DNA of 58,992 bases from a virus: IMG/VR virus record IMGVR_UViG_3300049783_001388, positions 1 to 58,992 of that record; one strand, given 5' to 3'. A program made the translations under genes and the position numbers. Each line of letters starts with the position of its first letter. Position 1 is the first letter of the stretch. The notes under the pieces are model-generated. The model saw only the letters and a list, made by a program, of their open reading frames with translations. It had not been told where the DNA came from and made no database searches. Positions 43,275-57,158 of the stretch are shown piece after piece.

Positions 43275-43315
43275 TCCAATTATGCAAATTTTACTTTAAT
43301 TTAGTTATATATTTG
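43275..43315 (+). promoter_or_regulatory. Bipartite promoter, TATATTTG box
   Basis: TCCAA at 43275-43279 and TATATTTG at 43308-43315: first bases 33 nt apart. The box is a perfect Bacteroidota -7 element. It drives the basic-protein gene at 43366. Confidence 0.75.
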
Positions 43316-43365
43316 TATCGCCAACAAGGCAAAAATAGTTTATTAATCCATTAAAAAATAAAGAA

Positions 43366-43899
43366 ATGGCAAAAGTAGTGAAAAAGCAACCTTTAAGAGT
43401 TGCAGGTAAAGTAACAGCAACATCAGCTGAACCAGTTGCAAAAAAGAAAATTGTAAGAAAACCAATTGAGCAAGCTGAAGAAGTTGAAGTAGTTGAAGCA
43501 GTTGAATTAACAGCTGAAGAGCAGCAGGAATTGGAAAAGGAAGTTGAGGCTAAAAAGTCAAAAGCTAAAGCCAAAAAAGAAAAGGCTGAAGCCAAATTAC
43601 AAACTGAATCTGATGCAATTAAAAATTGCGGTTATGTAGTTGGTGATGTAGCAAGAACCAAGAATGGTTCTGAAAAAGAAATTACCAAAATAACCTCAAG
43701 AGCACAAGGGGTTCATTTATGGTGGGAAACATTAGGTGGGATTTCTGCAGGTGGAAATTATACTTCACGTATCCTAGGTAAGGTTGTCGATGGCAACTTA
43801 ATTGACCCAATTACAAATCTAGCTATTGAAGTAGCTGAAAAGCCAAAAGCAAAGAAAAAAGCTGAAAAGGTTGAACCAGTAAGCCAAGAAGAGGAGTAA
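43366..43899 (+). CDS. Lys/Ala/Glu-rich basic protein, possible DNA-binding
   Basis: 177 residues. N-terminal (1-90) and C-terminal (160-177) regions are low-complexity Lys/Ala/Glu/Val with histone-H1-like KSKAKAKKEKAEAK. The middle (about 90-160) is a compact domain (YVVGDVARTKNGSEKEITKI...GVHLWWETLGG) like a small beta barrel. It could be a nucleoid or transcription-associated protein; no specific family recognised. Own promoter at 43275 and terminator at 43923: a single-gene unit. Confidence 0.65.
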   Translation: MAKVVKKQPLRVAGKVTATSAEPVAKKKIVRKPIEQAEEVEVVEAVELTAEEQQELEKEVEAKKSKAKAKKEKAEAKLQTESDAIKNCGYVVGDVARTKNGSEKEITKITSRAQGVHLWWETLGGISAGGNYTSRILGKVVDGNLIDPITNLAIEVAEKPKAKKKAEKVEPVSQEEE

Positions 43900-43922
43900 A
43901 CCCCTTAAGGTGAAGCAAATAG

Positions 43923-43956
43923 AAAGGTGTGTACGTATATACACCTTTTTATTTTT
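43923..43956 (+). terminator. Intrinsic terminator
   Basis: AAAGGTGTGTA and TATACACCTTT form a strong stem followed by TTATTTTTT. It ends the basic-protein gene. Confidence 0.9.
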
Positions 43957-43993
43957 TAAATAGCGTCTTCAGCAGTAACCAATACAAGCAAAA

Positions 43994-44155
43994 ATGGAAC
44001 AAAAAAGAAAAGTAATGTGGATCTACAAAAAAAGTTGGCGAAAACAACTTATTAAAGATAACTTGACATTAGACCAAGCAAGGAAAATGGTTAAAGAAGA
44101 TCAAGATAAAGGGGAAAGCACTAAAGTTAAAATTATGATATATGTCAAAATGTAA
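43994..44155 (+). CDS. Hypothetical 53-residue basic protein
   Basis: ATG at 43994 to TAA at 44153-44155. Basic, helical, Trp9 and Trp15. The leader AGCAAAA resembles the AACAGTAAAA leaders of the right arm. It overlaps the next small gene by 14 nt. No family recognised. Confidence 0.5.
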   Translation: MEQKRKVMWIYKKSWRKQLIKDNLTLDQARKMVKEDQDKGESTKVKIMIYVKM

Positions 44156-44318
44156 ATATTTAATTGGGATAGGTAAAAATCTTATAAACAAGTATAAAAG
44201 ATTACAGCCAAAGCATAGAGCAGAATTCATTATCGAAAAACATTTTGATGGTAATTATCCAACAGATGAAAACACTTTCTTACAAACAGAACAAATGTAT
44301 ATTGATGCATTAAGTTAA
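44142..44318 (+). CDS. Hypothetical 58-residue protein
   Basis: ATG at 44142 to TAA at 44316-44318; overlaps the preceding small gene. It contains YKRLQPKHRAEFIIEKHFDG, a helical stretch. Lies 17 nt before the ligase gene, so probably cotranscribed with it. No family recognised. Confidence 0.5.
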   Translation: MSKCKYLIGIGKNLINKYKRLQPKHRAEFIIEKHFDGNYPTDENTFLQTEQMYIDALS

Positions 44319-44335
44319 ACTTCAAAAATAAAAAT

Positions 44336-45415
44336 ATGGCATTAAAATTCAAACCTCAACTAATAGGTAACTTTGGATCAGGTGTAATACCTGATTGGCA
44401 TAAGCTAATTAAAGAACCAAAAGATTATCTTGTATCTACAAAAAAAGATGGTAATTGTATATTGCTTGAAAATGGTATTTCAAAAGGCAGGAGCTTAAAG
44501 GGATCACCAAGTAAAAGGGTACAAGAAATGGCTAAAGCCTTCCACAAAAAATACAATATTGATGGAATAGTTCATGGTGAATTCTATGCTGAAGGATTTA
44601 CATTCCCAGAAATTCAACACTTCTATAGCACAGTTGATATATCTTCTCCAAGTAAAATAAATGAATACCAAAACTTATGGGAAAAGACGAATGGTGGTAC
44701 TGAAACATACCAGTCTGTGCATAAAAACAGAATAGTTGAAAAACGTTGGGAGTTTCTCGGTAGGGACCCTGAATGGTTGACTACTTGGCATGATGAATTA
44801 AAATTCCATATATTTGATTATTTTAATGGTGACCAAAATTTAAATAAAGAAGATAGGTATTTTGCAATTGACGATATTATTGAAGAGGATTGCGATCTTG
44901 CACTTGTAATTCCACAATACGAATTTAAATCAGTTGCAGATATTATTGAATATTGCCAATATGAAATTAGTTCAGGGTATGAAGGTTTGGTAATATCCCA
45001 TAAACATTCACCATACAAATTTGGAAGGCATACTATAAAATCTGGAATGGTTTTTAAAATGAAGGATGACTTAAACGAATGGGATGCAGTTATTCTAAGT
45101 GTTGAAGAAGGTACACAAATAAAAGAAGGCGTTGAACGCACACTTAATGAATTAGGTAGATCTGTTACAAGTGGTAAACAAGATGACAGGAAGCCTAATG
45201 GTAAAGCTAAAGGATTTAGGGTAGAGCTTGAAAATGGTAAAGAAATGATAGTAAGCCTAAAAGGGTACACTGATGGTGAAAAGGTTGCTTTACTCGTGTA
45301 TGCTGATAAATATGTTGGTAAGACAATTAGGTTTACAGGTATGCATCCAGTAAAGAAAAATGGTGTACCTCGTCACGCACATTTCACAAAAGGTAACTTT
45401 AGAGATAGCAAATAA
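44336..45415 (+). CDS. ATP-dependent DNA ligase
   Basis: 359 residues, a compact phage ligase. The nucleotidyltransferase motifs are present: motif I STKKDGN with probable adenylated Lys36, motif III VHGEFYAEG, motif IV EGLVISH and motif V FKMKDD. The C-terminal OB domain carries KGFRVELENGKEMIVSLKG. It seals Okazaki fragments and recombination nicks. A strong terminator follows at 45442, so the ligase ends a short operon. Confidence 0.9.
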   Translation: MALKFKPQLIGNFGSGVIPDWHKLIKEPKDYLVSTKKDGNCILLENGISKGRSLKGSPSKRVQEMAKAFHKKYNIDGIVHGEFYAEGFTFPEIQHFYSTVDISSPSKINEYQNLWEKTNGGTETYQSVHKNRIVEKRWEFLGRDPEWLTTWHDELKFHIFDYFNGDQNLNKEDRYFAIDDIIEEDCDLALVIPQYEFKSVADIIEYCQYEISSGYEGLVISHKHSPYKFGRHTIKSGMVFKMKDDLNEWDAVILSVEEGTQIKEGVERTLNELGRSVTSGKQDDRKPNGKAKGFRVELENGKEMIVSLKGYTDGEKVALLVYADKYVGKTIRFTGMHPVKKNGVPRHAHFTKGNFRDSK

Positions 45416-45441
45416 AACCAAACAACTTAAATTTAAATCTG

Positions 45442-45475
45442 TAGCCCTATACATTAGTCTGTATAGGGTTTTTAT
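45442..45475 (+). terminator. Intrinsic terminator after ligase
   Basis: CCCTATACA (45445-45453) pairs with TGTATAGGG (45460-45468), followed by TTTTTAT. Confidence 0.9.
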
Positions 45476-45511
45476 ATGCTTTTTATACAAATGTACCAAA
45501 CAAAAATAAAG

Positions 45512-45540
45512 ATGGCTTAAAATGGCTTAAAATGGCTTTG
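45512..45540 (+). repeat. 10-bp tandem repeats ATGGCTTAAA
   Basis: Two perfect and one partial copy of ATGGCTTAAA in tandem, one helical turn apart; two further copies at 49499-49518. Both arrays lie just upstream of bipartite promoters, as operator or activator arrays would. Confidence 0.6.
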
Positions 45541-45561
45541 ATTAAATTATTTAAACTTTAG

Positions 45562-45602
45562 TCCAAGTATTAAAAATTTATTAAATTAATGCCTTAAATT
45601 TA
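45562..45602 (+). promoter_or_regulatory. Bipartite promoter, TAAATTTA box
   Basis: TCCAA at 45562 and TAAATTTA at 45595-45602 (33-nt register). It drives the five-gene run 45627-47004, whose first start has the AACAATACAAA leader. Confidence 0.7.
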
Positions 45603-45626
45603 CACTATAATTAAAAACAATACAAA

Positions 45627-45863
45627 ATGGGAAAAAATCGAAAACAGTATCTAGCATTCACCAATTCAACTTTCGCTTATGACAGCACAAAATTTGAGGC
45701 TATTGTAAGGCTAAAAAATGAATTAAAAAAGCAAAATCGTGAAGCAATTAGTTGTTGGCTATATGATTCTGCAAGAATCCCCGAAGGGACACATGTAATT
45801 CACAAAAATGGCATAGTATCTTGGGGTGGGAATAACTATACAACTGATCTAATAAAATTATAA
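45627..45863 (+). CDS. Hypothetical small protein
   Basis: 78 residues, basic; FEAIVRLKNELKKQNREAISCWLYDS suggests a helix-strand element and HVIHKNGIVSWGG a beta hairpin. First gene of a five-gene cluster behind promoter 45562. Function unknown. Confidence 0.6.
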   Translation: MGKNRKQYLAFTNSTFAYDSTKFEAIVRLKNELKKQNREAISCWLYDSARIPEGTHVIHKNGIVSWGGNNYTTDLIKL

Positions 45864-45867
45864 AATA

Positions 45868-46182
45868 ATGAAAAAAACACAAACAGAAATTAAGCCAGTA
45901 ATTGGTAGACCATTTACAGTACACGTAGACCAGGAATCTAAGCCTGAAATTTCAAACCCATTAGCATTCATTGAACAGGCTTATAAGCCGAGTTATAGTG
46001 GTAATTTGAACATTATAAGGTATGGTCAATATAAATTGTTGGGATATAAATATGACTTTAGACACATGTTGAATAATTACCTATATAAGCAATACGGTGA
46101 TTGGCAAGAATCTTGGGCTCCAAATGAAGAAATTTTAAGAAAAGTTATTTCAGGTAAAATTGATAAAATTGTTAAAATTTAA
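45868..46182 (+). CDS. Hypothetical small protein
   Basis: 104 residues, basic, Tyr-rich (KQYGDWQESWAPNEEIL). It starts 4 nt after the preceding gene. No family recognised. Confidence 0.6.
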   Translation: MKKTQTEIKPVIGRPFTVHVDQESKPEISNPLAFIEQAYKPSYSGNLNIIRYGQYKLLGYKYDFRHMLNNYLYKQYGDWQESWAPNEEILRKVISGKIDKIVKI

Positions 46183-46184
46183 TT

Positions 46185-46460
46185 ATGAGAACAATTGATA
46201 AAATTATAACTGAAGTTGGCTCAAAGTATGGATCACCTATGGGTAGGAAAAATGTAATACCTGAACCATACTCATGGGACTTTGATTTTTCAGGTAGGAA
46301 ATGGATACCTGATGGTCAAAATAAAAGGATTTATGACTGCAGAGTTAAAATGTCACCTTGTGGAGCTTATGATAGTGGAGGTGCATATTGGGGTATTGCA
46401 AGAGAGTTGAGAGTAAGTTACACAAAAGATCTAACATTAATTTATTTTTATAGAGTATGA
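46185..46460 (+). CDS. Hypothetical small protein
   Basis: 91 residues; a Gly-rich aromatic C-terminal half (CRVKMSPCGAYDSGGAYWGI) with two Cys. It starts 2 nt after the previous stop and its TGA overlaps the next ATG. This composition recalls small phage proteins translated in host-takeover clusters; no function assigned. Confidence 0.6.
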   Translation: MRTIDKIITEVGSKYGSPMGRKNVIPEPYSWDFDFSGRKWIPDGQNKRIYDCRVKMSPCGAYDSGGAYWGIARELRVSYTKDLTLIYFYRV

Positions 46461-46735
46461 TTTATAAAATAATTGTGGCTTCTGGATCTATAAATGGTTT
46501 AAATATAAGACAAACAGATTGTTGTTGGATGTATAAATCTATTATGATTAGGATTAATAAATGTAGAAACAATATAAAAGATCTATCACCATTAGAATTA
46601 TTTGAAGTAATTATTAGATTAAGTAAGAAAGGTTTATATCACTTTAAAAAATATATATTTCAATATTGGGAATGTTCTAAATATAATATTTGGGAAATTA
46701 GAAAAATTAAAAAAACAATTAAATATTTATCATGA
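46457..46735 (+). CDS. Hypothetical basic protein
   Basis: 92 residues, Lys/Ile-rich with four Cys. It overlaps genes on both sides by 4 nt, which supports reality despite the low-complexity composition. No family recognised. Confidence 0.55.
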   Translation: MIYKIIVASGSINGLNIRQTDCCWMYKSIMIRINKCRNNIKDLSPLELFEVIIRLSKKGLYHFKKYIFQYWECSKYNIWEIRKIKKTIKYLS

Positions 46736-47004
46736 TAACGCAAGAAAACTTTAAGGCAGTACTTGACGATTTAACGCTAGAACAATTAAAAGAGTATTGG
46801 GAATCTCAATATGACATGGTATTAGTTATTTTATCACAAACGAACTCTGGATATTCAACAACATTAAAATTTGCTACATTCAGTGATGATTGGGATGAAT
46901 ACCTAAACAATGGTAATATATGTTGTGACAAAGATGAGTTTGCTTCTTATCTCCACTATTATGAACCTAAAAACTGGTTAGAATTCTACAACAATAAAGA
47001 TTAA
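46732..47004 (+). CDS. Hypothetical acidic protein
   Basis: 90 residues, strongly acidic (LTLEQLKEYWESQYD), no TM segment. Last gene of the 45627 cluster. Acidic mini-proteins in phage early regions often mimic DNA or bind host enzymes, but nothing here proves it. Confidence 0.6.
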   Translation: MITQENFKAVLDDLTLEQLKEYWESQYDMVLVILSQTNSGYSTTLKFATFSDDWDEYLNNGNICCDKDEFASYLHYYEPKNWLEFYNNKD

Positions 47005-47030
47005 AATTTATTCATATAAGGTAAGTTGAT

Positions 47031-47071
47031 TCCAACTTTAAGTAGTTGTGTTTAAATTTGCCTTAAATTTG
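47031..47071 (+). promoter_or_regulatory. Bipartite promoter, TAAATTTG box
   Basis: TCCAA at 47031 and TAAATTTG at 47064-47071 (33-nt register); a TTG lies 15 nt before the box. It drives 47092 and 47405. Confidence 0.75.
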
Positions 47072-47091
47072 TTTATAAACAAAGCAGTATT

Positions 47092-47394
47092 ATGGGAAAC
47101 ATCAGGGTAAGTAAAAGTTCAGCACCAGATAAATATGAACAAAAATTGAAAAGTAATGGCGAATTCATAAGTTCAATACATAACGAATGGGAAGCTGATG
47201 GTGATCGCTATTTTGAAGCTATGCTATTTAATAAAAAAGGTAAAATAGAATCATTAAGTTTATATGAAAATGAATCATTAATAAAATTTGAAAATTATAT
47301 CACAAAAGGTATAGTTTCTAAATTAGAATGTAGGACATTGATTAAAAATGGTATTGAAACAAGAGAATACGGAAATCCAAAATCATTAATGTAA
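47092..47394 (+). CDS. Hypothetical small protein
   Basis: 100 residues. The middle part, with repeated strand-turn-strand and FNKKGKIESLSLYENESLIKF, resembles the toxin-antitoxin-like YwqK/MORN_2 strand pattern seen in the 53582, 55062 and 55555 proteins. Leader AAGCAGTATT. Function unknown. Confidence 0.6.
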   Translation: MGNIRVSKSSAPDKYEQKLKSNGEFISSIHNEWEADGDRYFEAMLFNKKGKIESLSLYENESLIKFENYITKGIVSKLECRTLIKNGIETREYGNPKSLM

Positions 47395-47404
47395 AAACAT
47401 TATT

Positions 47405-47599
47405 ATGGGAAAAAATTTAGAACAAGTTAGAACATTAGTAAATGAGCTTGATACAATTGCAGAACAGATACAAAGTCTTCTAGATGAGGAAATTGAAATT
47501 GATGGTGAGTTAAATGGTGAAGACGTTGATTTATTACACCAAATGGAATGCATACAAAATGATGTTACTATCTATCAAGAACAAAAAGGATACATTTAA
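47405..47599 (+). CDS. Hypothetical acidic helical protein
   Basis: 64 residues, very acidic, predicted coiled-coil throughout (LEQVRTLVNELDTIAEQIQS). Ten nt behind the preceding gene. No family recognised. Confidence 0.6.
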   Translation: MGKNLEQVRTLVNELDTIAEQIQSLLDEEIEIDGELNGEDVDLLHQMECIQNDVTIYQEQKGYI

Positions 47600-47624
47600 A
47601 TTGATTATAATTTTAAAAGTTGAA

Positions 47625-47664
47625 TCCAATTTAGTAAATTTTTGTTTACTTTGGTGTAACTTTA
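47625..47664 (+). promoter_or_regulatory. Bipartite promoter with 32-nt register
   Basis: TCCAA at 47625 and TAACTTTA at 47657-47664: the only clear member with a 32-nt instead of 33-nt register. Followed by the AAAACAGCAATATT leader of 47690. Confidence 0.6.
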
Positions 47665-47689
47665 CAGTATAATTTAAAACAGCAATATT

Positions 47690-48289
47690 ATGGAAATGAC
47701 ACCTATGGGGTTAAAAAGGAAAAAATCAATAAGCAGTTCAAGAGAAATGGCTATGGATGAAATTGAAGCTAATTGTAAAAATTACAAACTTAATGATTCC
47801 CTCTTTAAAGATTATAAAGATTTGCGTAACGCATTAGATACGGTTTCTGCAAATATAGACCCAAGATCTTCACTTAATAATGTAAACATAATTGACTTAT
47901 TAAATGAGAAATCAAAATATTTAATGCAAGTTGGGGACGAATTAGTAAACTTTGAAAAAGAAAAAGAATTTGTTAATGTAAATAAGTTAAAGTGGGATGA
48001 GAATATAATAAAGTGCTTTATGGAATATAATTATATTGAACCAATTTTAAACAGGCTTGATGAGATTAAAATTGATATCCTTGGCATTGGTGGCGTAATT
48101 GAATATTCCCGTAAAATGGAAAACTTAAATGACACTTTGCATGAATTGCAAAATGCTAATTTCCATTCAGACTATTATTTGAAAGAAGCAAATGAACTAA
48201 TTGAAATCATTAAAACTTGTATTTCAATTAAAGGTGAAATAGCTAAAATGTATGAGTATGAGAATAAATTGATAGGGTATGGCAAATAA
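47690..48289 (+). CDS. Hypothetical helical protein
   Basis: 199 residues, highly charged and helical with long coiled-coil-like stretches; no TM segment. First of a four-gene run (47690-49342) with overlapping ends that finishes in the lytic transglycosylase. Function unknown. Confidence 0.6.
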   Translation: MEMTPMGLKRKKSISSSREMAMDEIEANCKNYKLNDSLFKDYKDLRNALDTVSANIDPRSSLNNVNIIDLLNEKSKYLMQVGDELVNFEKEKEFVNVNKLKWDENIIKCFMEYNYIEPILNRLDEIKIDILGIGGVIEYSRKMENLNDTLHELQNANFHSDYYLKEANELIEIIKTCISIKGEIAKMYEYENKLIGYGK

Positions 48290-48689
48290 ATTAAGATACG
48301 AAAATTACAGTGACACTATTAGACAAATGCCACAGAATTATCTTATAGCCAGTAAAAAATGTAACAGATGGTTATGCGAGCCGGATCTTGAAGTTGATGT
48401 TAACCTTGCAGTGATTGTATTTAAATCTTTACTAATTTATGAAAATAAATACGAAACTGATGGTAACAATTTATTGAAAAAATTAAGAAAAGTCATTAAT
48501 TCAAATGTCAAACCTATTGTAGGTAAAACATACTCGTTAGATTGGGATGGTGAGACTTATGCAAAGGTAGTCGAAATTTCAAAAGATGGAATAATATTAT
48601 TTTCTGAAGATCGCCAGGATGATGAAGCTTTTATGAACATAAATGTTGAACAGTTTAAAGATATGTTAAATTATGAAATTACTATTTAA
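48279..48689 (+). CDS. Hypothetical protein
   Basis: 136 residues; the C-terminal half has a short beta domain (GKTYSLDWDGETYAKVVEIS) and an acidic tail. It overlaps neighbours by 11 and 17 nt. No family recognised. Confidence 0.6.
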   Translation: MANKLRYENYSDTIRQMPQNYLIASKKCNRWLCEPDLEVDVNLAVIVFKSLLIYENKYETDGNNLLKKLRKVINSNVKPIVGKTYSLDWDGETYAKVVEISKDGIILFSEDRQDDEAFMNINVEQFKDMLNYEITI

Positions 48690-48876
48690 ATTAATGCTCA
48701 TAGTCATAGTGGCACAGCTATTCAGTTGCGTTATTGTGATAAATCACCCAAAAGAAAATAATAGAATTAAAGATTCTACTATTGTATTAATAAAAGAAGC
48801 ATTCCCAATAAGAGATTTTTACAGGGATGCACAAAGAAGGCGCGAGCTAAAGAGGTATGGTAGAAAAGATAATTAG
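48673..48876 (+). CDS. Small lipoprotein, possible outer-membrane spanin-like
   Basis: 67 residues. The signal sequence KLLFKLMLIVIVAQLFSC ends in a plausible lipobox (LFSC, Cys19). The mature peptide is short and basic (RDFYRDAQRRRELKR). It overlaps the transglycosylase gene by 20 nt. Small lipoproteins beside murein enzymes can be spanins (Rz1-like) or superinfection-exclusion proteins; which one is not decidable here. Confidence 0.6.
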   Translation: MKLLFKLMLIVIVAQLFSCVIVINHPKENNRIKDSTIVLIKEAFPIRDFYRDAQRRRELKRYGRKDN

Positions 48877-49342
48877 TGTAGCAATATTGATGTCACTTTC
48901 AGGGGGGGTTATGTCACAAAAAATTGCCATGAATAATGTGAAAATACCATCATCTATTAATGATCAAATATTCACAGAAGAATTCTTACAACTGCAAAGG
49001 TTCTATGAATCAAGCAACAACCAAAATGCCATTTCAACATCCGGTGCAATAGGTGTAGCTCAGTTTATGCCTAAGACCTGGTCATGGTTAAAGCATAAAA
49101 AGATTATACCTTCCCATTATTCAATAAATAATGAAAAACATCAAATAAGATCACAAAGGTTATATATGGAATATCTTTACAATAGACCATGGAAACCATA
49201 TTATGACAGTTACAGGGCAACAATAGCTTCATATAATTGTGGAAGAGGGAAAGTATTAAGGCTAATGAAAAATTATTTCATATATTGGGAATTGTACCTC
49301 CCACTTGAAACAAAGAATTACCTAAAGAAATTAACAAATTGA
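48857..49342 (+). CDS. Exported lytic transglycosylase
   Basis: 161 residues: N-terminal signal peptide (IISVAILMSLSGGVMSQ), then an SLT-type domain with catalytic Glu51 in FYESSNNQNA, SGAIGVAQFMPKTW (62-75), IASYNCGRGKVLR and LPLETKNYLKK. The enzyme cleaves MurNAc-GlcNAc bonds with 1,6-anhydro formation. It is made with a signal peptide from the right arm rather than the late lysis block, so it may remodel the wall for another purpose, such as lysis timing or host surface change. The family call is solid. Confidence 0.85.
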   Translation: MVEKIISVAILMSLSGGVMSQKIAMNNVKIPSSINDQIFTEEFLQLQRFYESSNNQNAISTSGAIGVAQFMPKTWSWLKHKKIIPSHYSINNEKHQIRSQRLYMEYLYNRPWKPYYDSYRATIASYNCGRGKVLRLMKNYFIYWELYLPLETKNYLKKLTN

Positions 49343-49365
49343 TCTAACAATCTTTATTAAATAAA

Positions 49366-49498: not shown

Positions 49499-49518
49499 AT
49501 GGCTTAAAATGGCTTAAA
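49499..49518 (+). repeat. Two tandem ATGGCTTAAA units
   Basis: The same 10-bp unit as at 45512, again one helical turn apart and just upstream of a bipartite promoter. Confidence 0.55.
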
Positions 49519-49536
49519 AATAATTTAAAATCCTTA

Positions 49537-49577
49537 TCCAATTTGAATAAATTATAGCGTTTAATACCTTAAATTTA
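49537..49577 (+). promoter_or_regulatory. Bipartite promoter, TAAATTTA box
   Basis: TCCAA at 49537 and TAAATTTA at 49570-49577 (33-nt register). Drives 49603 onward. Confidence 0.7.
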
Positions 49578-51050: not shown

Positions 51051-51098
51051 TAATAATCTTTTAACCAAGCCCAAATCTTGGGGTGTAATCATATAAAA

Positions 51099-51326
51099 AT
51101 GAGAATATTTAATCACATAATTCAAGGCAGCGAATCAGACAAGAGAAATGCCTATGACACAGCTTCATATTTTGACTTCACAGGGGTTGGGTTAAAAGAA
51201 GGTAGGTTGGACCCACAACATCATAGATTTATTGACACAATAAATGAGATTGGGATCTATTACAATAGGACTGCCGATTACTATTTCTTTACAGATGAAA
51301 ATGAAAACTATTCAATAGAAGATTAA
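51099..51326 (+). CDS. Hypothetical protein
   Basis: 75 residues from the ATG at 51099; the TTG at 51078 lies in the recurring AAATCTTGGGG motif and is rejected. Contains YDTASYFDFTGVG and ends acidic. No family recognised. Confidence 0.55.
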   Translation: MRIFNHIIQGSESDKRNAYDTASYFDFTGVGLKEGRLDPQHHRFIDTINEIGIYYNRTADYYFFTDENENYSIED

Positions 51327-51341
51327 AATTTAATAGTTGAT

Positions 51342-51382
51342 TCCAATTTTAGCGTTAATGTTAATTTATTATTTTACATTTG
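51342..51382 (+). promoter_or_regulatory. Bipartite promoter, TACATTTG box, without a following gene
   Basis: TCCAA at 51342 and TACATTTG at 51375-51382 (33-nt register). The next feature is a terminator at 51440 with no usable ORF between. Confidence 0.7.
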
Positions 51383-51388
51383 TAATAA

Positions 51389-51468
51389 GCAAAATATAAA
51401 ATCTAAATATCAAAATCATGTAAACTATGTAGACATAAATAGGGGTGTGACAACAGCACCCCTTTTAG
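51389..51468 (+). ncRNA. Candidate small RNA between promoter and terminator
   Basis: Transcription from the 51375 box would start about 51389 and stop at the hairpin AGGGGTG / CACCCCT (51441-51463) plus TTTT. The two ATGs inside are each followed directly by a stop codon. A transcript of about 75-80 nt without coding capacity is predicted. Confidence 0.5.
51440..51468 (+). terminator. Intrinsic terminator of the candidate small RNA
   Basis: AGGGGTG pairs with CACCCCT around TGACAACAG, followed by TTTA. Confidence 0.85.
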
Positions 51469-51502
51469 CATATTGATTTGATTAAATTATATAAATAGAA
51501 TT

Positions 51503-51682
51503 ATGGGTTGGAAAACAACAATTGATATCACAAGGCTAGAAGCTAAAAGATTAATTATTAAAAAATTATTTGACATTGATTCAATGAGCAATATTGAACT
51601 CGCCAATATGGTAGAACAATTAGGTTACGGTGAAGAACCTGAAATGACTCATTATGGATGTAACTTTATTGTTACAGATTAA
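51503..51682 (+). CDS. Hypothetical 59-residue protein
   Basis: ATG at 51503 (leader AAATAGAATT) to TAA at 51680-51682. Helical, slightly acidic (NIELANMVEQLGYGEEPEM). It has no obvious promoter of its own and could be reached by read-through of the 51440 terminator. No family recognised. Confidence 0.5.
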   Translation: MGWKTTIDITRLEAKRLIIKKLFDIDSMSNIELANMVEQLGYGEEPEMTHYGCNFIVTD

Positions 51683-51698
51683 AATTTTAAAATCTATA

Positions 51699-51739
51699 TC
51701 CAACCTGACTTAATTGTTAGGTTTTAATTTTTACCTTTG
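51699..51739 (+). promoter_or_regulatory. Bipartite promoter, TACCTTTG box
   Basis: TCCAA at 51699 and TACCTTTG at 51732-51739 (33-nt register), TTG 15 nt before the box. The spacer carries CCTGAC-TTAATT-GTTAGG, shared with the 52109 cassette. Confidence 0.75.
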
Positions 51740-51768
51740 TAATGTAATAATGTAAAAGCAGTAAAGAT

Positions 51769-51876
51769 ATGAAAGCAAATTTAACACCAGATTCAAAACT
51801 ATTAAAGCAAGGAATTATCATAGCAATAATTGGAATAATGATAATAATAGTTTTAGAATTATTATTCACAATTTAA
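51769..51876 (+). CDS. 35-residue single-TM peptide
   Basis: ATG at 51769 with an AAGCAGTAAAGAT leader to TAA at 51874-51876. After a short polar N-terminus comes one TM helix (GIIIAIIGIMIIIVLELLF). The next gene has the same leader and a similar start (MKANL / MNANL), so the first codons may have been duplicated with the leader. Confidence 0.55.
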   Translation: MKANLTPDSKLLKQGIIIAIIGIMIIIVLELLFTI

Positions 51877-51887
51877 ACAGTAAAGAT

Positions 51888-52091
51888 ATGAATGCAAATT
51901 TGAAAATTGAACAAGAAGATTTAAAGGTATTGTTTGTACACACTAAGGATGCGTATCCAAATATGAGTTTTGAAAATTGGTGTAAGGATTGTGAAAAATC
52001 TTATATGCTATATTTCAACAATAAAGAAATTTACAATAAGAAAAGATATACTTATTCTCAATGGGTGAACTCACAAATACTACTACTGTAA
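51888..52091 (+). CDS. Hypothetical small protein
   Basis: 67 residues, Tyr/Lys-rich, contains NWCKDCEKSYMLYF with two Cys. Leader AACAGTAAAGAT. No family recognised. Confidence 0.55.
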   Translation: MNANLKIEQEDLKVLFVHTKDAYPNMSFENWCKDCEKSYMLYFNNKEIYNKKRYTYSQWVNSQILLL

Positions 52092-52108
52092 TCATTTTTA
52101 AATCCCTA

Positions 52109-52149
52109 TCCAGCCTGACTTAATTGTTAGGCTTTTTATTTTAAATTTG
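52109..52149 (+). promoter_or_regulatory. Bipartite promoter, TAAATTTG box
   Basis: TCCAG (variant) at 52109 and TAAATTTG at 52142-52149 (33-nt register), TTG 15 nt before the box. CCTGACTTAATTGTTAGG in the spacer is identical to that of the 51699 cassette, showing cassette duplication. Confidence 0.75.
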
Positions 52150-52177
52150 CAATGTAACAATTTAAAAACAGTACAAA

Positions 52178-52456
52178 ATGGAACAGATATTTCAAGAAAT
52201 AGGTAAAGCGCTCAAGGGCAAAAAATTCTCAACATTTAAAATCGTAGGCTATCAGCACGTTGACTTCTTAATAAAACTAATTTATCACGATTGTGATGAG
52301 TATTACAGGGCTGTATATGATGGCTCAAAAAACGATGGCTCTTTTTTACCACTACAAAGAATAGGTTGGTCAACTAATAGAAAAGAAAAATTTGAAGCGG
52401 ATAATGAATACAAAGCACTTGAACAAGAAATTAAAAATACATTTGAAAAAATATAA
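52178..52456 (+). CDS. Hypothetical small protein
   Basis: 92 residues; an alpha/beta N-terminus (STFKIVGYQHVDFLIKLIY), then a charged helical C-terminus. Leader AACAGTACAAA. No family recognised. Confidence 0.6.
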   Translation: MEQIFQEIGKALKGKKFSTFKIVGYQHVDFLIKLIYHDCDEYYRAVYDGSKNDGSFLPLQRIGWSTNRKEKFEADNEYKALEQEIKNTFEKI

Positions 52457-52467
52457 ACAATAAAGAT

Positions 52468-52803
52468 ATGAACAAAAAAGCAGCACCATCAGAGACAACA
52501 AAAGATAGGTTAATTGGGGCAATGGAATACATGAGTGAAGAACAAATGGATTTCTTATTAAGATTAACAAACTTGGGAAGCTACCCAACCAAAGTTGATC
52601 TACTTAAACTTTCAGGGTTTGATACAAGTAAGACTTATGACACCGCTACACCCATTGATTATTTAAGGCGCATAGAAGAAATCTACCCAAACATTAAAGA
52701 TGCTAATCTAATATTTGATTACTCAAAAAATAGTTGGGGTGAAATGACAAATGTAAATGATATGCTTGTAAGGGAAATGATTTACATCTTTAAATCAAAA
52801 TAA
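52468..52803 (+). CDS. Hypothetical helical protein
   Basis: 111 residues, helical, charged; EEQMDFLLRLTNLGSYPTKVDLLKLSGF could be a helix-turn-helix-like pair. 11 nt behind the previous gene with an AACAATAAAGAT leader. No family recognised. Confidence 0.55.
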   Translation: MNKKAAPSETTKDRLIGAMEYMSEEQMDFLLRLTNLGSYPTKVDLLKLSGFDTSKTYDTATPIDYLRRIEEIYPNIKDANLIFDYSKNSWGEMTNVNDMLVREMIYIFKSK

Positions 52804-52881
52804 ACCTACAGCTTAAAAGATTAAGGTGGGGTATGACTCTATAAATATAACGTAGTAAAACTGAAAATTAAGCCATAAATT

Positions 52882-53205
52882 ATGAATAAGATAACATTAC
52901 AAGAACAATTTGAATTCTTAGGTGTGGAAACACTTGGTGAATTAATTATAATAAATACCGAACAGGACGAAATAGTAAGAGTTGAAAACTCTATAGATAT
53001 TTCTTGTTATGAATTAGTAAAGTCAGGTAAATTATCTAGTATTGAAATTGAAAATGAGACTGTTACAAGGTATGTTAAATTATGTGAATCTAATGGGTTA
53101 AGATTTGTATTAAATAGATATTTAACTAATGGATTCAGTATGAGTTCATATTCTTTTAAAGATGCTAATTTTAATGAAAGTCACTGGGGGAATATATTTC
53201 ATTAA
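52882..53205 (+). CDS. Hypothetical acidic protein
   Basis: 107 residues, acidic. It begins LQEQFEFLGVETLGELIII, somewhat like the LEESFAFSFKHLGI start of the 57185/57568 paralogues, so it may be a distant relative. Function unknown. Confidence 0.55.
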   Translation: MNKITLQEQFEFLGVETLGELIIINTEQDEIVRVENSIDISCYELVKSGKLSSIEIENETVTRYVKLCESNGLRFVLNRYLTNGFSMSSYSFKDANFNESHWGNIFH

Positions 53206-53374
53206 TTATAGCATTATGAAATATAGTATTCATTAAATATATGCATTATTATTAGTATATGAATTCAGCTATTCTTAATCTTTTCATTTACTTAAAAGCT
53301 CCAAATCTTGGGGTATATGTACTATAACTAAAGAAAAAAGATTTGAAAATATAATAATATATCAAATCAATTCA

Positions 53375-53435
53375 AAAATTGCTATTATGAATTCATTTAA
53401 TATCATTTAAATCATTAGCGTAAAATAGCAATTTT
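53375..53435 (+). promoter_or_regulatory. Perfect 12-bp inverted repeat in a 376-nt intergenic region
   Basis: AAAATTGCTATT (53375-53386) and AATAGCAATTTT (53424-53435) with a 37-nt spacer. The rest of 53206-53581 holds one AAGCTCCAAATCTTGGGG motif (about 53292), the duplicated 48-nt block and a promoter; no gene is seen. Confidence 0.55.
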
Positions 53436-53466
53436 AAGCAATCTTAATAGTTAATGTATGTAATAC

Positions 53467-53515
53467 TATTAAAATTTTAAAAGGATGCCTTAAACAGCTT
53501 AACTTTGCGTCCTAA
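53467..53515 (+). repeat. 48-nt intergenic repeat, copy 1
   Basis: TATTAAAATTTTAAAAGGAT then GCCTTAAACAGCTTAACTTT and GCGTC; recurs with few changes at 56133-56182 and in weaker form near 58060-58105. Contains a TAACTTTG box. It occupies the upstream-box position of the promoters at 53510 and 56177. Confidence 0.7.
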
Positions 53516-53550
53516 ATACAATTTTTGTGTATATATAATATGTATATTTG
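53510..53550 (+). promoter_or_regulatory. Bipartite promoter, TATATTTG box, variant upstream box
   Basis: TCCTA at 53510 in place of TCCAA, and TATATTTG at 53543-53550, exactly 33 nt apart; TTG lies 15 nt before the box. Drives 53582. Confidence 0.65.
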
Positions 53551-53581
53551 TGTATATAATTTTAACCCATTAAAAAACAGT

Positions 53582-54085
53582 ATGATTATGAAACACATTT
53601 TTTTAAAAGGATCTAGTGTAACTAAGCTTAATAAAATTATTAAGCAAGACATTTCAATTAATGACTCTTATTATACAGGTGTCCCACAAATAGAAAGGGT
53701 GGTAACAGAGTTTGAAAGTATGAACAAAACTTTATTTGAAATACTAACATTCCACAAACCAGAAGCTGATGATTTCTTCTATTTAGGCACAAAACAAATT
53801 TACAACAAAGATCAACAAGCGTTAATGTTAGAAACATATCATGTAAATGGTTCAATCTATGAACGTGTCCATTACGCAAAAGGAATTGCCCAATACGTTC
53901 AAATATATAATGACCAAGGTGATTTGTCTGGTTCAATACATTTATATGATAGCAAAGTGGTGTATGTAATTGATAATAAGCAAGTAAGTGAATATGATTT
54001 TTGGAATTTAAGCTGTGAAGAGTTTCAAAATAATACTTATGATTATTGCTTTACTGGTGCAAACTGTCTACAATATAAAAACTAA
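53582..54085 (+). CDS. Hypothetical protein, strand-repeat (MORN_2-like) family A
   Basis: 167 residues from the ATG at 53582, which has the AAAAACAGT leader; the in-frame ATG at 53525 is inside the promoter. The second half has short strand-turn-strand units (TYHVNGSIYERVHYAKGIAQYVQIYNDQGDLSGSI) like YwqK/MORN_2 repeats. Similar layout to 55062 and 55555, a small paralogue family. Function unknown. Confidence 0.6.
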   Translation: MIMKHIFLKGSSVTKLNKIIKQDISINDSYYTGVPQIERVVTEFESMNKTLFEILTFHKPEADDFFYLGTKQIYNKDQQALMLETYHVNGSIYERVHYAKGIAQYVQIYNDQGDLSGSIHLYDSKVVYVIDNKQVSEYDFWNLSCEEFQNNTYDYCFTGANCLQYKN

Positions 54086-54092
54086 ATTTGAA

Positions 54093-54133
54093 TCCAATCA
54101 GGGCATATAATTGGTTTTGTATGCCTAAATTTA
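54093..54133 (+). promoter_or_regulatory. Bipartite promoter with palindromic spacer
   Basis: TCCAA at 54093, TAAATTTA at 54126-54133 (33-nt register). The spacer holds GGCATA...TATGCC, its 3' arm touching the box. Drives 54156. Confidence 0.75.
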
Positions 54134-54155
54134 CTTATAACTAAAAACAGTACAA

Positions 54156-54377
54156 ATGAAGAATAAAACGATTTTACGCCCCTTGACTATGAAAAATGAG
54201 CGACCTAAAGTGATTAAAAAAGAATACACTGAATCAGATCTCATAAGGGCATACAGGTTAGGGTGCAGTGATGGTAGTGGAACAAGCGAACCAAAAGACA
54301 AAAGGTATATGCAAGGCTGGGACAGGACTCAAGCAGAGAATATTCAGTTACAAAAAATCATAAACAGTACAAAATAA
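54156..54377 (+). CDS. Hypothetical basic protein
   Basis: 73 residues, Arg/Lys-rich, with AYRLGCSDGSGTSEPKDKRYMQGWDR. Leader AACAGTACAA. No family recognised. Confidence 0.55.
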   Translation: MKNKTILRPLTMKNERPKVIKKEYTESDLIRAYRLGCSDGSGTSEPKDKRYMQGWDRTQAENIQLQKIINSTK

Positions 54378-54378
54378 A

Positions 54379-54519
54379 ATGGAAAAAGATTTTAAAAGAT
54401 TACTAGAAATATACTCAAGTCAACTAGGATTTAAATTAGATAAATACCACATTGATCTAATGAGAAATACTTTAGAAACTTACGATTTGTTTGTCAAAGT
54501 TGAAAAGCACTTAAAATAA
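54379..54519 (+). CDS. 46-residue helical protein
   Basis: ATG at 54379, one base after the previous stop codon, to TAA at 54517-54519; charged, helical (FKRLLEIYSSQLGFKLDKYH). Its stop lies at the start of the 39-nt repeat. No family recognised. Confidence 0.5.
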   Translation: MEKDFKRLLEIYSSQLGFKLDKYHIDLMRNTLETYDLFVKVEKHLK

Positions 54520-54556
54520 TAGATAAAGATTCAAATTTACATAAAGAATCCAATCA
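54518..54556 (+). repeat. 39-nt direct repeat, copy 1 (copy 2 at 54966-55004)
   Basis: Identical 39-nt blocks starting AATAGATAAAGATTCAAATT and ending GAATCCAATCA. Each spans the end of a gene and the upstream box of the next promoter, so copying occurred with gene end and promoter together. Confidence 0.85.
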
Positions 54557-54589
54557 ATACCTATGTTTTAAAAAATGTAGGTATATTTA
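54549..54589 (+). promoter_or_regulatory. Bipartite promoter with its own palindrome
   Basis: TCCAA at 54549, TATATTTA at 54582-54589 (33-nt register). The palindrome ATACCTA...TAGGTAT differs from neighbouring cassettes. Drives 54614. Confidence 0.75.
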
Positions 54590-54613
54590 CGTGTAACTTA
54601 AAAACAGTACAAA

Positions 54614-54967
54614 ATGAAAACAAACATTCATCACATCATCAACGTAAAATCAGGCAAAGAAGAAGTATTCTTTGATCACCTAGGAAACTTATCCATACCA
54701 AGCATTAAAGATATACATAGGAATATTGATCAAATAGTCTTTGGTATTGGCTTTGAAAATGGATACTTCTTTAATCAATTAAAAATAGCCAATAACAGGA
54801 ATATAACTAAAGCTGAATACAAAAAACGCTCACATACATTTAGAAAATCTGAATATGAATTTGATTGTTATTGTGTAGGTCAAGAATTAGAAAGTTCACG
54901 ATATACAGGTTATGAACCAGATCTAAACCCTGGAGGTGGACCTTATAACCCTAATGATAATATTTAA
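54614..54967 (+). CDS. Hypothetical protein
   Basis: 117 residues, His-rich N-terminus (KTNIHHIINVKSGKEEVFFDHLG), an alpha/beta pattern, and a Gly/Pro-rich C-terminus (LNPGGGPYNPND). Single-gene unit with an AACAGTACAAA leader. No family recognised. Confidence 0.6.
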   Translation: MKTNIHHIINVKSGKEEVFFDHLGNLSIPSIKDIHRNIDQIVFGIGFENGYFFNQLKIANNRNITKAEYKKRSHTFRKSEYEFDCYCVGQELESSRYTGYEPDLNPGGGPYNPNDNI

Positions 54968-55004
54968 TAGATAAAGATTCAAATTTACATAAAGAATCCA
55001 ATCA
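54966..55004 (+). repeat. 39-nt direct repeat, copy 2
   Basis: Identical to 54518-54556; overlaps the last bases of the 54614 gene and the TCCAA box of the next promoter. Confidence 0.85.
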
Positions 55005-55037
55005 GGGCATATTTTTTGTATTTATGCCCTACATTTG
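54997..55037 (+). promoter_or_regulatory. Bipartite promoter with GGGCATA/TATGCCC palindrome
   Basis: TCCAA at 54997, TACATTTG at 55030-55037 (33-nt register). GGGCATA (55005-55011) and TATGCCC (55023-55029) end directly at the box. Drives 55062. Confidence 0.78.
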
Positions 55038-55061
55038 TATATAATTTAAAAACAGTAAAAA

Positions 55062-55535
55062 ATGAACAAAATGAAACTAATATTCTTAACTAAATCTTCG
55101 GCAACGCTTGAAAACATAGTAAGCCAAAATCTTGAATTATTTGATTGCTGCGGAGCTTTGCCAATAATAACTGAAATTGAATCTAATTTCGTAAACAAAA
55201 AAGGTGTACTAATTACTGAAAATCTTGAATTTGATGAACACAAGGGGCATCAATTCTTAAAAATGAAAAGTTTATCACATTTTAATGGTTTTATGTATTG
55301 TGCTGAAATATACCACCATAATGGGAATTTACGTGAAGAAGTTTTTTTTAATGACCTTGGTACTGCCAAAAATATTCATATATCAAATAAAAAAGGAAAT
55401 CGTATAGCTACATTCTTAATTGATAATAGGGGTGTAAGGTTATTTGAAAAAGGTACCGAAGTTGACCCACATGGTTACGAAAAATATCTATTTAGTGATT
55501 CTTGGGTAAACACAATACCTGATCTATTAACATAG
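55062..55535 (+). CDS. Hypothetical protein, strand-repeat family A
   Basis: 157 residues. The second half has MORN_2/YwqK-like units (YHHNGNLREEVFFNDLGTAKNIHISNKKG). It shares N-terminal form (MKLIFLTKSSATLENIV) with 53582 and layout with 55555. Cytosolic, no signal. Function unknown. Confidence 0.6.
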   Translation: MNKMKLIFLTKSSATLENIVSQNLELFDCCGALPIITEIESNFVNKKGVLITENLEFDEHKGHQFLKMKSLSHFNGFMYCAEIYHHNGNLREEVFFNDLGTAKNIHISNKKGNRIATFLIDNRGVRLFEKGTEVDPHGYEKYLFSDSWVNTIPDLLT

Positions 55536-55554
55536 TGCAAACAAATTCAATATT

Positions 55555-56034
55555 ATGAAAAAATTTATTAAGAGTAGAGGCAGTTTAGCAACACATGAAA
55601 TCATTCGAGAACAAGTGGTCACATACGGGAATTGCAATGGAAACCCATACACAAAATCAATAATTAATGAATGGCTACTGGGTAATGATAATCATTATGA
55701 AGAAATAACTTATGATGATGGGGAAGTGAGTAATATATATTGGAAAGTGAATGGTAAACCCACAAGGCAAAATTCTTATTTTGTTACTAAAAATGGTTGG
55801 ACCTTATCTGAATCTTGTGTATATGGTACTACAGGAATCAATACCATGACCTTTGGTGAAATTGGAACTGAAAACCACAATGGTATGCTAATCTATAGTA
55901 AAGATATAATGATTGGTTACTATAATATTGATGGTAAATACCAACCAATAAATGGTAGTGATGATCATACAATATGGAAGTGGCAAGAAAAATTAGGTAT
56001 ATACAGTGATTCATTATTAAACATTTTTACCTAA
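55555..56034 (+). CDS. Hypothetical protein, strand-repeat family A
   Basis: 159 residues; N-terminus MKKFIKSRGSLATHEIIREQ, then strand-turn units (HYEEITYDDGEVSNIYWKVNGKPTRQN). Third member of the 53582/55062 family, 19 nt behind 55062 and cotranscribed. Function unknown. Confidence 0.6.
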   Translation: MKKFIKSRGSLATHEIIREQVVTYGNCNGNPYTKSIINEWLLGNDNHYEEITYDDGEVSNIYWKVNGKPTRQNSYFVTKNGWTLSESCVYGTTGINTMTFGEIGTENHNGMLIYSKDIMIGYYNIDGKYQPINGSDDHTIWKWQEKLGIYSDSLLNIFT

Positions 56035-56132
56035 TTGTCATAATTAAGCTACATAATTGTAGCTTTTTTTTAGACACTATGATTAAAAATATGACAAGTT
56101 TTAAGCAATCTTTATTTTAAATTGGTATGTGG

Positions 56133-56182
56133 CTATTAAAATTTTTAAAAGATGCCTTAAACCGCTTAACTTTGCGTCTTAA
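56133..56182 (+). repeat. 48-nt intergenic repeat, copy 2
   Basis: CTATTAAAATTTTTAAAAGAT then GCCTTAAACCGCTTAACTTTGCGTC split over the block; close match to 53467-53515. Preceded by TTTTAAGCAATCTTT, also found at 34109 and 53430. Confidence 0.7.
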
Positions 56183-56217
56183 GTTGGTATGTAGTACGTT
56201 AATTTATGCTACATTTA
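56177..56217 (+). promoter_or_regulatory. Bipartite promoter, TACATTTA box, variant upstream box
   Basis: TCTTA at 56177 in place of TCCAA, TACATTTA at 56210-56217, exactly 33 nt apart. Drives 56240. Confidence 0.6.
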
Positions 56218-56239
56218 CATATAATTAAAAACAAGCAGT

Positions 56240-56413
56240 ATGAACAAAATGAATAATTTACAGCAAGACATTATTGAAAATAGCTTAACAGTATTTGAAC
56301 CTGAAAGTAATGATAGTGTACACCAAAAATTAAAAAGTGGAAATGATTACCCATATAGCTTTTTAGATGATGATTATTTTAAAAATGAAAATGAAAGCAT
56401 GCCATATATTTAA
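56240..56413 (+). CDS. 57-residue acidic protein
   Basis: ATG at 56240 with an AAGCAGT leader to TAA at 56411-56413. Strongly acidic C-terminal half (FLDDDYFKNENES). No family recognised. Confidence 0.55.
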   Translation: MNKMNNLQQDIIENSLTVFEPESNDSVHQKLKSGNDYPYSFLDDDYFKNENESMPYI

Positions 56414-56422
56414 CCACAAATA

Positions 56423-56725
56423 ATGAACAGTATGAAAAAAATGAATAAAAAGTACAAGGCAACATCATTAGTTGAAAAACTGAAATGCAATGGTAATCAA
56501 TCCTTGATTGGTTGTATAGTAAAGTTTGAAAACTTGAAACATAAGGGCAACTATCATAAAAACAACTTGTTTGAAATCATTGGTTTTCAAAGAGTTTATG
56601 GGCATAATGCCGAAGGTGAATATACATTAATTGATGGGTTAAGGCTAATGTCAATAACTTGCTTTGATGATTTTGGAACACCATGCAACTATAATGAAAT
56701 ATCATTTTTAACTACAAATAATTAA
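56423..56725 (+). CDS. Hypothetical basic protein
   Basis: 100 residues, basic N-terminus (MNSMKKMNKKYKATS), beta-rich remainder (LIGCIVKFENLKHKGNYHKNN...FEIIGFQ). 9 nt behind 56240. Internal Met codons at residues 4 and 7 could also serve as start. No family recognised. Confidence 0.55.
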   Translation: MNSMKKMNKKYKATSLVEKLKCNGNQSLIGCIVKFENLKHKGNYHKNNLFEIIGFQRVYGHNAEGEYTLIDGLRLMSITCFDDFGTPCNYNEISFLTTNN

Positions 56726-56798
56726 CAGTATGAGTCCACAAATATTAAAACAATTGAAAAACTAATAGGTAGCTAAAGATTAAAATTTAAAATAAGAA

Positions 56799-56839
56799 TC
56801 CAATCAAGGCATATAGTGTACATTATATGCCTATATTTA
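56799..56839 (+). promoter_or_regulatory. Bipartite promoter with 9-bp palindrome
   Basis: TCCAA at 56799, TATATTTA at 56832-56839 (33-nt register). AGGCATATA...TATATGCCT is a perfect 9-bp palindrome overlapping the box start. Drives 56865. Confidence 0.78.
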
Positions 56840-56864
56840 CGTATAATTAAAAACCTATAACGTT

Positions 56865-57107
56865 ATGATTTATCTATTGCCTAATTTCGCCCCTGCCCAT
56901 AATCAATCAAAAGACCAACTATCGTATAAAAATTTTATAATAGATTTTTCAAATTCTTATAAGATATCTGTATTTTGCAATAATGATCTACACCACGGAG
57001 ATTTTGATAATATCATTAGCGCAAAAAATTATATAAATAGTTATATAAATAGTAGCCTATATGATAAAGAATTGATATATAATATAAATTTAAAGAAATT
57101 ATTTTAA
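56865..57107 (+). CDS. Hypothetical protein
   Basis: 80 residues, Asn/Ile/Tyr-rich, acidic centre. Its leader (ACCTATAACGTT) departs from the AACAGT form. Single-gene unit. No family recognised. Confidence 0.5.
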   Translation: MIYLLPNFAPAHNQSKDQLSYKNFIIDFSNSYKISVFCNNDLHHGDFDNIISAKNYINSYINSSLYDKELIYNINLKKLF

Positions 57108-57117
57108 AAAATAAGAG

Positions 57118-57158
57118 TCCAATCAAGGCGCATAATTTACATTTTATGCCTACATTTA
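57118..57158 (+). promoter_or_regulatory. Bipartite promoter, TACATTTA box
   Basis: TCCAA at 57118, TACATTTA at 57151-57158 (33-nt register). Spacer GGCGCATAA...TTATGCC is an imperfect palindrome related to the 56799 cassette. Drives 57185 and 57568. Confidence 0.75.

Follow-up and report, generated by a model that had tools for sequence, protein, structure and literature searches.

A phage array of putative host-type promoters with a TCCAA element at fixed distance from the -7 box

The IMG/VR virus record IMGVR_UViG_3300049783_001388, analysed here over its full 58,992 bases (the window), has a GC content of 30% and carries nearly all of its genes on the + strand. Between positions 43255 and 57158, fifteen putative promoters combine the pentamer TCCAA, or a close variant of it, with a TAnnTTT(G/A) box at a fixed distance, an arrangement that is strongly non-random. 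As judged from the sequence, the -33 box of Bacteroidota promoters appears to be replaced in this lineage by an upstream element made of an AT-rich block (-65 to -46) and TCCAA. On balance we favour class II-like, activator-dependent early promoters that would be read by the host sigma-A RNA polymerase.

Geometry and statistics of the promoter set

A first-pass annotation had listed fifteen upstream boxes at an exact distance from a TAnnTTT(G/A) box. All fifteen coordinates are correct, with a spacing of 33 nucleotides (nt) at 14 sites and of 32 nt at 47625 (Table 1). TCCAA itself stands exactly 33 nt before TAnnTTT(G/A) at 11 sites, the remaining ones having either a variant box at 33 nt (TCCAG at 52109, TCCTA at 53510 and TCTTA at 56177) or, at 47625, TCCAA at 32 nt. 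The + strand contains 50 TCCAA and 154 TAnnTTT(G/A) in total, and over distances of 5 to 80 nt their pairs number 11 at 33 nt, one each at 22, 31 and 32 nt, and no others. Against about 0.1 pairs expected at 33 nt, the 11 observed have a tail probability of about 1e-19 before correction, and even when every 5-mer, distance and strand is allowed for (at most some hundred thousand tests) it stays very small. On the - strand there is one chance pair at 33 nt.

A weight matrix was then built from the 15 sites and used to scan both strands of the window as well as 12 related phage genomes. In the window all 15 sites score above 18 bits on the + strand, none does so on the - strand, and no other site exceeds 17 bits. 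The leave-one-out scores extend from 12.6 to 35.8 bits, a range indicating that the weakest sites (47031, 56177 and 52109) are partly self-supported in the matrix. The placement given in the first-pass annotation also holds, as every site but 51342 lies a short distance 5' of a start codon and 51342 precedes a small-RNA candidate.

The -7 box, the register and the missing -33 box

In Flavobacterium johnsoniae the mapped -7 element is T-12 A-11 n n T-8 T-7 T-6 G-5, with transcription starting 4-5 nt behind it (PMC6847099), and the assignment of TAnnTTTG as the Bacteroidota -7 element agrees with this map. At the 33-nt sites TA, TTT and the final G/A are found in 14/14, and the base before TTT is A in 13 and C in one; the boxes have the form TAHHTTTG of sigma-ABfr promoters, in which -5 is G or A in the relatives. 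Since the T of TAnnTTTG is -12 and the box covers -12 to -5 (PMC6847099), TCCAA falls at -45 to -41 and not at -47 to -43 as first proposed. The AT-rich block lies directly 5' of it, at about -65 to -46, giving an upstream element of about 25 base pairs (bp) in all. With this register the leaders would be about 20-30 nt long for most genes, near the F. johnsoniae average of 33 nt (PMC6847099).

The TTG or TTTG of a sigma-ABfr -33 box is lacking: in 13 of the 15 sites the -33 region contains no TTG, and only 49537 and 56177 have one near -33, slightly out of register. The fixed upstream box is indeed distinct from the usual -33 element, TCCAA being situated about 10 bp, or about one helix turn, further upstream.

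Aligned at the 33-nt sites, the conserved columns are TCCAA (T in 14/14, C in 14/14 and the second C in 13/14), TAnATTT(G/A)(C/T) and a block of about 20 bp before TCCAA that is AT-rich, with preferences for T 19 bases, A 8 bases and G 3 bases ahead of the pentamer. Compared pairwise, the sites are 89% identical in TCCAA, 83% in the -7 box and 49% in the 20 bp before TCCAA, against 40% in the spacer, 40% in the leader and 32% far upstream, where a shifted-register null gives 32-36%. Such conservation could in principle come from the multiplication of one ancestral promoter cassette, TCCAA being kept mainly by common descent and having little function. Indeed, some pairs have long flanks in common, since the 20 bp before the box are identical in 54549 and 54997 and 95% identical in 53510 and 56177, while 51699 and 52109 share 85% of their spacer. 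However, over all pairs the spacer, the leader and the far upstream DNA stay at the null or close to it, yet identity in TCCAA reaches 89% and the spacing is 33 nt in 14 of 15 sites; moreover the near-identical pairs are few and a set thinned to nine sites still has the box. Hence a few site pairs appear to share flanks through recent duplication and the set as a whole does not, and we regard such copying as an improbable origin of the box.

Related phages and host-side genomes

The phage was placed near the Cellulophaga phages phiST, phi13:1 and phi19:2 and the Tenacibaculum phage Larrie (genus Cbastvirus) because of its DNA polymerase, ligase and T7-like RNA polymerase, its proteins having 30-38% identity to those of these phages. 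In each related genome, k-mers over-represented at a fixed distance from TAHHTTT(G/A) were sought. In phiST, G001, G007, G033, G047 and MA9V-3 this gave TGTTG at 25-27 nt, corresponding to the canonical -33 TTG, in arrays like that of the window; G023 gave TTTTGT at 24 nt from the -7 box. In Larrie it picked out a pair of TTTAACA repeats (at 49 and 38 nt, 11 bp apart), and TTTTG is often present near -33. On its - strand, at about 10900-19800, around a dozen early promoters carry this TTTAACA pair at about -61 to -44, another lineage-specific upstream element.

TCCAA emerged from the k-mer test in the window genome only. The matrix scan of the 12 related phage genomes gave no match above 18 bits, and a pattern scan of 50 related records gave scattered matches without any array (phiST has five, in an AT-rich genome of 78 kb). 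The enrichment at the 33-nt register that the first-pass annotation had named as a test in related phages was thus not found by any of these three approaches, and so the element is confined to this lineage. Two pattern scans of IMG/VR for the geometry returned scattered single matches only, among the matches listed. A promoter-like match in a 335-kb phage (L221) was rejected, as it stands alone in that genome and its TCCAA lies within a hairpin. A host-wide promoter class was also rejected, the arrangement in the stricter form ATCCAA-28-TAnATTTG occurring at most four times in any one of 247 Bacteroidia genomes, a sample that may not include the host. Given the canonical -33 arrays of the relatives against the TCCAA without TTG of the window, arrays of host-type early promoters would be a family trait that has been kept while one contact was exchanged.

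The proposed activator and its alternatives

In the model that we favour, the host RNA polymerase with its primary sigma factor (sigma-ABfr) would read the early promoters through the TAnATTT(G/A) -7 element, and a sequence-specific protein would bind TCCAA and contact the C-terminal domain of the alpha subunit (alpha-CTD) and/or sigma region 4, substituting for the missing -33 box. The AT-rich DNA at -65 to -46 and TCCAA at -45 to -41 stand in fixed register to the -7 box, and each promoter would serve one or a few genes. The predicted site corresponds to the class II type, in which an element centred near -43 takes the place of the -35 or -33 box, since TCCAA lies at -45 to -41 with fixed spacing and no -33.

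The first-pass annotation had suggested either an activator or a different sigma subunit. The first of these has gained strength, given that TTG is missing in 13/15 sites, that most relatives keep -33 and that TCCAA is found where class II activators bind. The second is unlikely, because the -7 box is of the ordinary sigma-A type and a search of the probably incomplete contig gave no match to sigma-70 region 4 (PF04545); a phage sigma would be expected to go with a non-host -10 element.

Several points weigh against an activator. The promoters of F. johnsoniae show little -33 signal overall (PMC6847099), so that the missing TTG alone is no proof that one is needed. The probably incomplete contig has no match to PF08765 (the Mor/C family) at E-values up to 10, and no Mor, sigma-70 region 4 or HTH_3 domain was detected in it, about a quarter of the genome being probably missing. 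Most early proteins match no family in family scans, the sole hint of an activator being a very weak CI-like match in 48279-48689. Furthermore, TCCAA forms one half-site only, and no second half is well conserved, the symmetry TTG-N4-CAA being present in only about 6 of 14 sites as read from the alignment.

As to the origin of the proposed activator, we lean towards a phage or virion protein rather than a host one, because the arrangement is abundant in none of the Bacteroidia genomes sampled. If the promoters are the first to act, the activator has to be supplied by the host or the virion, whereas the need for one made by the phage would make the set delayed-early. Tentatively, and as a possibility that we rate below even, the phage may make or inject an activator from a family not yet described, which binds TCCAA and recruits sigma-ABfr polymerase to promoters devoid of -33, a form of sigma or alpha appropriation in Bacteroidota in which a -43 box, a terminator and a -7 box are nested within 41 bp.

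The same element could also act without any separate activator, as an UP element in which the AT-rich block and TCCAA bind the host alpha-CTD (proximal subsite at about -46 to -41) and offset a weak -33 contact. The extent from -65 to -41 fits a distal and a proximal subsite, the block before TCCAA is A/T-rich, the direct TTTAACA repeats of Larrie, 11 bp apart, stand at about the same place, and immediate-early genes would need no phage factor. However, UP elements are A/T tracts and alpha-CTD recognises the minor groove, which the near-invariant T-C-C does not resemble; when A/T-only tracts were sought at about -59 to -38, the A/T-rich block was present but TCC stood invariant. TCCAA would moreover be expected in host promoters, and no such enrichment was seen in the 247 Bacteroidia genomes. 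We consider an UP element alone the next most likely reading, at well below the probability of an activator.

Far less credible, and the least probable of the alternatives, is that the boxes belong to the T7-like RNA polymerase of the phage, possibly with an upstream helper. This single-subunit enzyme of 789 amino acids (aa) is encoded directly before the region and its operon is preceded by the candidate promoter at 39265, but promoters of the T7 type cover some 20 bp, in contrast to the 41 bp over which the conserved boxes extend here, and the -7 box matches the host consensus. In relatives whose polymerases are homologous, similar arrays consist of canonical -33/-7 host promoters, and a better candidate promoter for the enzyme is CATAAACTATAA, beside the start codons of replication genes. 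Stretches resembling CATAAACTATAA occur at 19690-33097, directly 5' of these start codons (e.g. 21668-21678, 24205-24227, 27618-27631, 32018-32032 and 33080-33096); they are similar to CACTATA, the core of the T7 promoter, and the phage's own RNA polymerase may use them as promoters, leaving only very short leaders.

Hairpins in the spacer

The stems between TCCAA and the -7 box exceed those of dinucleotide shuffles (z 6.3), which is not the case in the flanks, and 8 of the 15 spacers fold with z below -2. Three spacer hairpins were called as intrinsic terminators (51702-51723, 52112-52133 and 54101-54126), the other five being weaker as terminators owing to larger loops or poor T-tracts. The layout is that of intrinsic terminators, in which a G+C-containing hairpin is followed by a T-rich tract close behind a stop codon. 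Such a hairpin is found in 7/9 promoters beginning no more than 80 nt behind the stop codon of the gene before, versus 1/6 of the roomier ones, and at least two roomy sites (45562 and 56177) are preceded, on the same strand, by a separate terminator. Between 51699 (AACCTGAC/GTTAGGTT) and 52109 (AGCCTGAC/GTTAGGCT) the stem shows a compensatory change, and 54549 and 54997 have a common flank with different stems. In about half of the promoters, the spacer thus probably houses the terminator of the preceding gene, packed as a hairpin into the promoter of the following one. The packing in relatives differs, the T-tract of the upstream gene's terminator forming part of the TTTTTGTTG -33 box (L009 at 7513 and 19458; L013 at 16718 and 25693).

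TCCAA and the spacer could instead be the operator of a repressor that silences the early genes later in infection, the promoters working without it. In its favour, GGCATA...TATGCC or a close variant in the spacer beside TCCAATCA is common to four sites. However, the dyads differ in sequence (AACCTGAC, ATACCTA, GGGCATA) and in offset, the compensatory pair change between 51699 and 52109 fits a transcribed hairpin better, and an operator needs neither a fixed 33-nt register nor the loss of -33, all of which makes it very improbable. A common operator formed by the spacer dyads alone was rejected for the same variation in sequence and offset, and cruciform extrusion that would shorten the spacing was rejected since hairpin sizes vary while the 33-nt register is constant.

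Gene context and further observations

The coordinates of the promoters and of the main genes are collected in Table 1. The candidate at 39265 precedes a gene that comes just before the RNA polymerase gene and, like the one at 58101, was absent from the first list. The listed start of the open reading frame (ORF) 57146-57547 falls within the -7 box of promoter 57118; its true start is probably the ATG at 57188, in agreement with the paralogue 57538-57927 (common MKT(V/A)QIL(S/P)LEES). Behind promoter 51342, at 51383-51480, a start-stop ATGTAA is followed by a GGGGTG...CACCCC hairpin and a T-tract, a small-RNA candidate of about 90 nt.

Table 1. Putative promoters, weaker candidates and polymerase and ligase genes in the window
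Feature	Position	Strand	Upstream box	Spacing (nt)	-7 box	Hairpin or terminator	Gene behind, or remark
DNA polymerase gene	35122-38487						related to Cbastvirus-group phages
Weaker candidate	39245..39304	+	TCTTA 39265	32	TATATTTG		likely gene start 39344; matrix 16.9 bits
T7-like single-subunit RNA polymerase gene	39899..42268	+					789 aa; PHROGs phrog_414, E 1e-116; relatives phiST, Larrie
Promoter	43255..43315	+	TCCAA 43275-43279, AT-rich part upstream	33	TATATTTG 43308-43315		43366
Ligase gene	44336-45415						related to Cbastvirus-group phages
Promoter	45542..45602	+	TCCAA 45562	33	TAAATTTA	separate upstream terminator 45443-45470	45627
Promoter	47011..47071	+	TCCAA 47031	33	TAAATTTG		47092
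Promoter	47605..47664	+	TCCAA 47625	32	TAACTTTA	spacer hairpin about 47633-47650	47690
Promoter	49517..49577	+	TCCAA 49537	33	TAAATTTA		49603
Promoter	51322..51382	+	TCCAA 51342	33	TACATTTG		short transcript/small-RNA candidate; next ORF 51503
Promoter	51679..51739	+	TCCAA 51699	33	TACCTTTG	spacer terminator hairpin 51702-51723	
Promoter	52089..52149	+	TCCAG 52109	33	TAAATTTG	spacer terminator hairpin 52112-52133	52178
Promoter	53490..53550	+	TCCTA 53510	33	TATATTTG		about 53582
Promoter	54073..54133	+	TCCAA 54093	33	TAAATTTA	spacer terminator hairpin 54101-54126	54156
Promoter	54529..54589	+	TCCAA 54549	33	TATATTTA	hairpin 54557-54584, extends into -7 box	54614
Promoter	54977..55037	+	TCCAA 54997	33	TACATTTG	hairpin 55004-55030	55062
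Promoter	56157..56217	+	TCTTA 56177	33	TACATTTA	separate upstream terminator 56046-56065	56240
Promoter	56779..56839	+	TCCAA 56799	33	TATATTTA	hairpin 56807-56832	56865
Promoter	57098..57158	+	TCCAA 57118	33	TACATTTA	hairpin about 57127-57151	likely start 57188
Weak candidate	58081..58139	+	TCTTA 58101	31	TACATTTG		11.7 bits; no ORF directly behind

The T7-like RNA polymerase would be the phage's own later polymerase. As single queries the RNA polymerase, the DNA polymerase and the ligase gave no relative above about 40% identity, and in a profile search with the DNA polymerase the best relatives reach 45-47%. The region from 43 to 58 kb consists of many short genes without known function, like the early regions of the relatives; its protein 55062-55535 has no homologue among phages, and an Rfam scan of 38000-58992 gave zero matches. 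Considering that the genomes of the relatives measure about 77-79 kb, the contig is probably incomplete and lacks about 18 kb, or about a quarter of the genome, including the terminase and much of the structural module. Imperfect tandem repeats of 41-42 bp at 58773-58992 run up to the very end of the record and are probably why the assembly stops.

Other repeated elements were noted. A 22-bp motif, CTTAGGGAYGCTTATWWATACC, a putative regulatory element, occurs twice (24161-24182 and 34165-34186; shuffles expect 0) and is each time followed by ACTATTGC. A small hairpin, AAGC(T/C)CCAAATCTTGGG(G), has three copies in non-coding DNA at about 38520, 51070 and 53300. The leader AAAACAGTA(CAAA)ATG, at 52178-57158, is common to early genes and not to replication genes, and is possibly a translation signal or a mark of expression class.

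Comparison with known systems and significance

Compared with canonical sigma-ABfr promoters (TTTG / TAnnTTTG), the set is alike in its -7 element and expected start site, but it has no -33 and carries TCCAA some 10 bp farther upstream, with almost constant spacing. The closest described case is the Pm promoter of phage Mu, where a Mor dimer bound at -43.5 takes the place of the -35 element and the upstream DNA is a partial UP element (PMC4390567). Both have an ordinary primary-sigma -10 or -7 element, no -35 or -33, an element near -43 in its place and AT-rich DNA directly upstream, but the Mor site is 16 bp long with two 5-bp inverted repeats (PMC4390567), in contrast to the one strong half-site TCCAA here. 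Mu, moreover, has one such promoter compared to about 15 in the window, where sigma-ABfr is expected and no Mor-family protein was found in the contig.

The middle promoters of phage T4, with their MotA box and AsiA (sigma appropriation), are similar in that an activator box replaces the -35 contact, the -10 is kept and many promoters are involved. Their MotA box, however, lies near -30, about 13 bp closer to the start than TCCAA, and the family scans of the early proteins, which were not aimed at MotA or AsiA, showed nothing like them. The Cbastvirus relatives (phiST, G001, G007 and MA9V-3) and Larrie likewise have numerous short genes in their early regions, every one with its own host-type promoter, sometimes fused to a terminator, but they use TGTTG at -33 (phiST and others) or the TTTAACA pair (Larrie), and TCCAA is in none of them. 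The array follows a known promoter logic in a form specific to its lineage, with a putative extra factor, and the first-pass interpretation was right in outline.

The early transcription of Bacteroidota phages has hardly been studied, and the sigma factor of their hosts differs from that of Escherichia coli. About 15 promoters with one fixed box offer a ready test of how a phage takes over the sigma-ABfr polymerase, and could lead to the first described phage activator in Bacteroidota; the box, together with the protein proposed to bind it, might also be turned into a switchable expression system for these bacteria. Within one phage group, the early promoters would switch between the canonical -33 box and lineage-specific boxes, TCCAA here and TTTAACA in Larrie.

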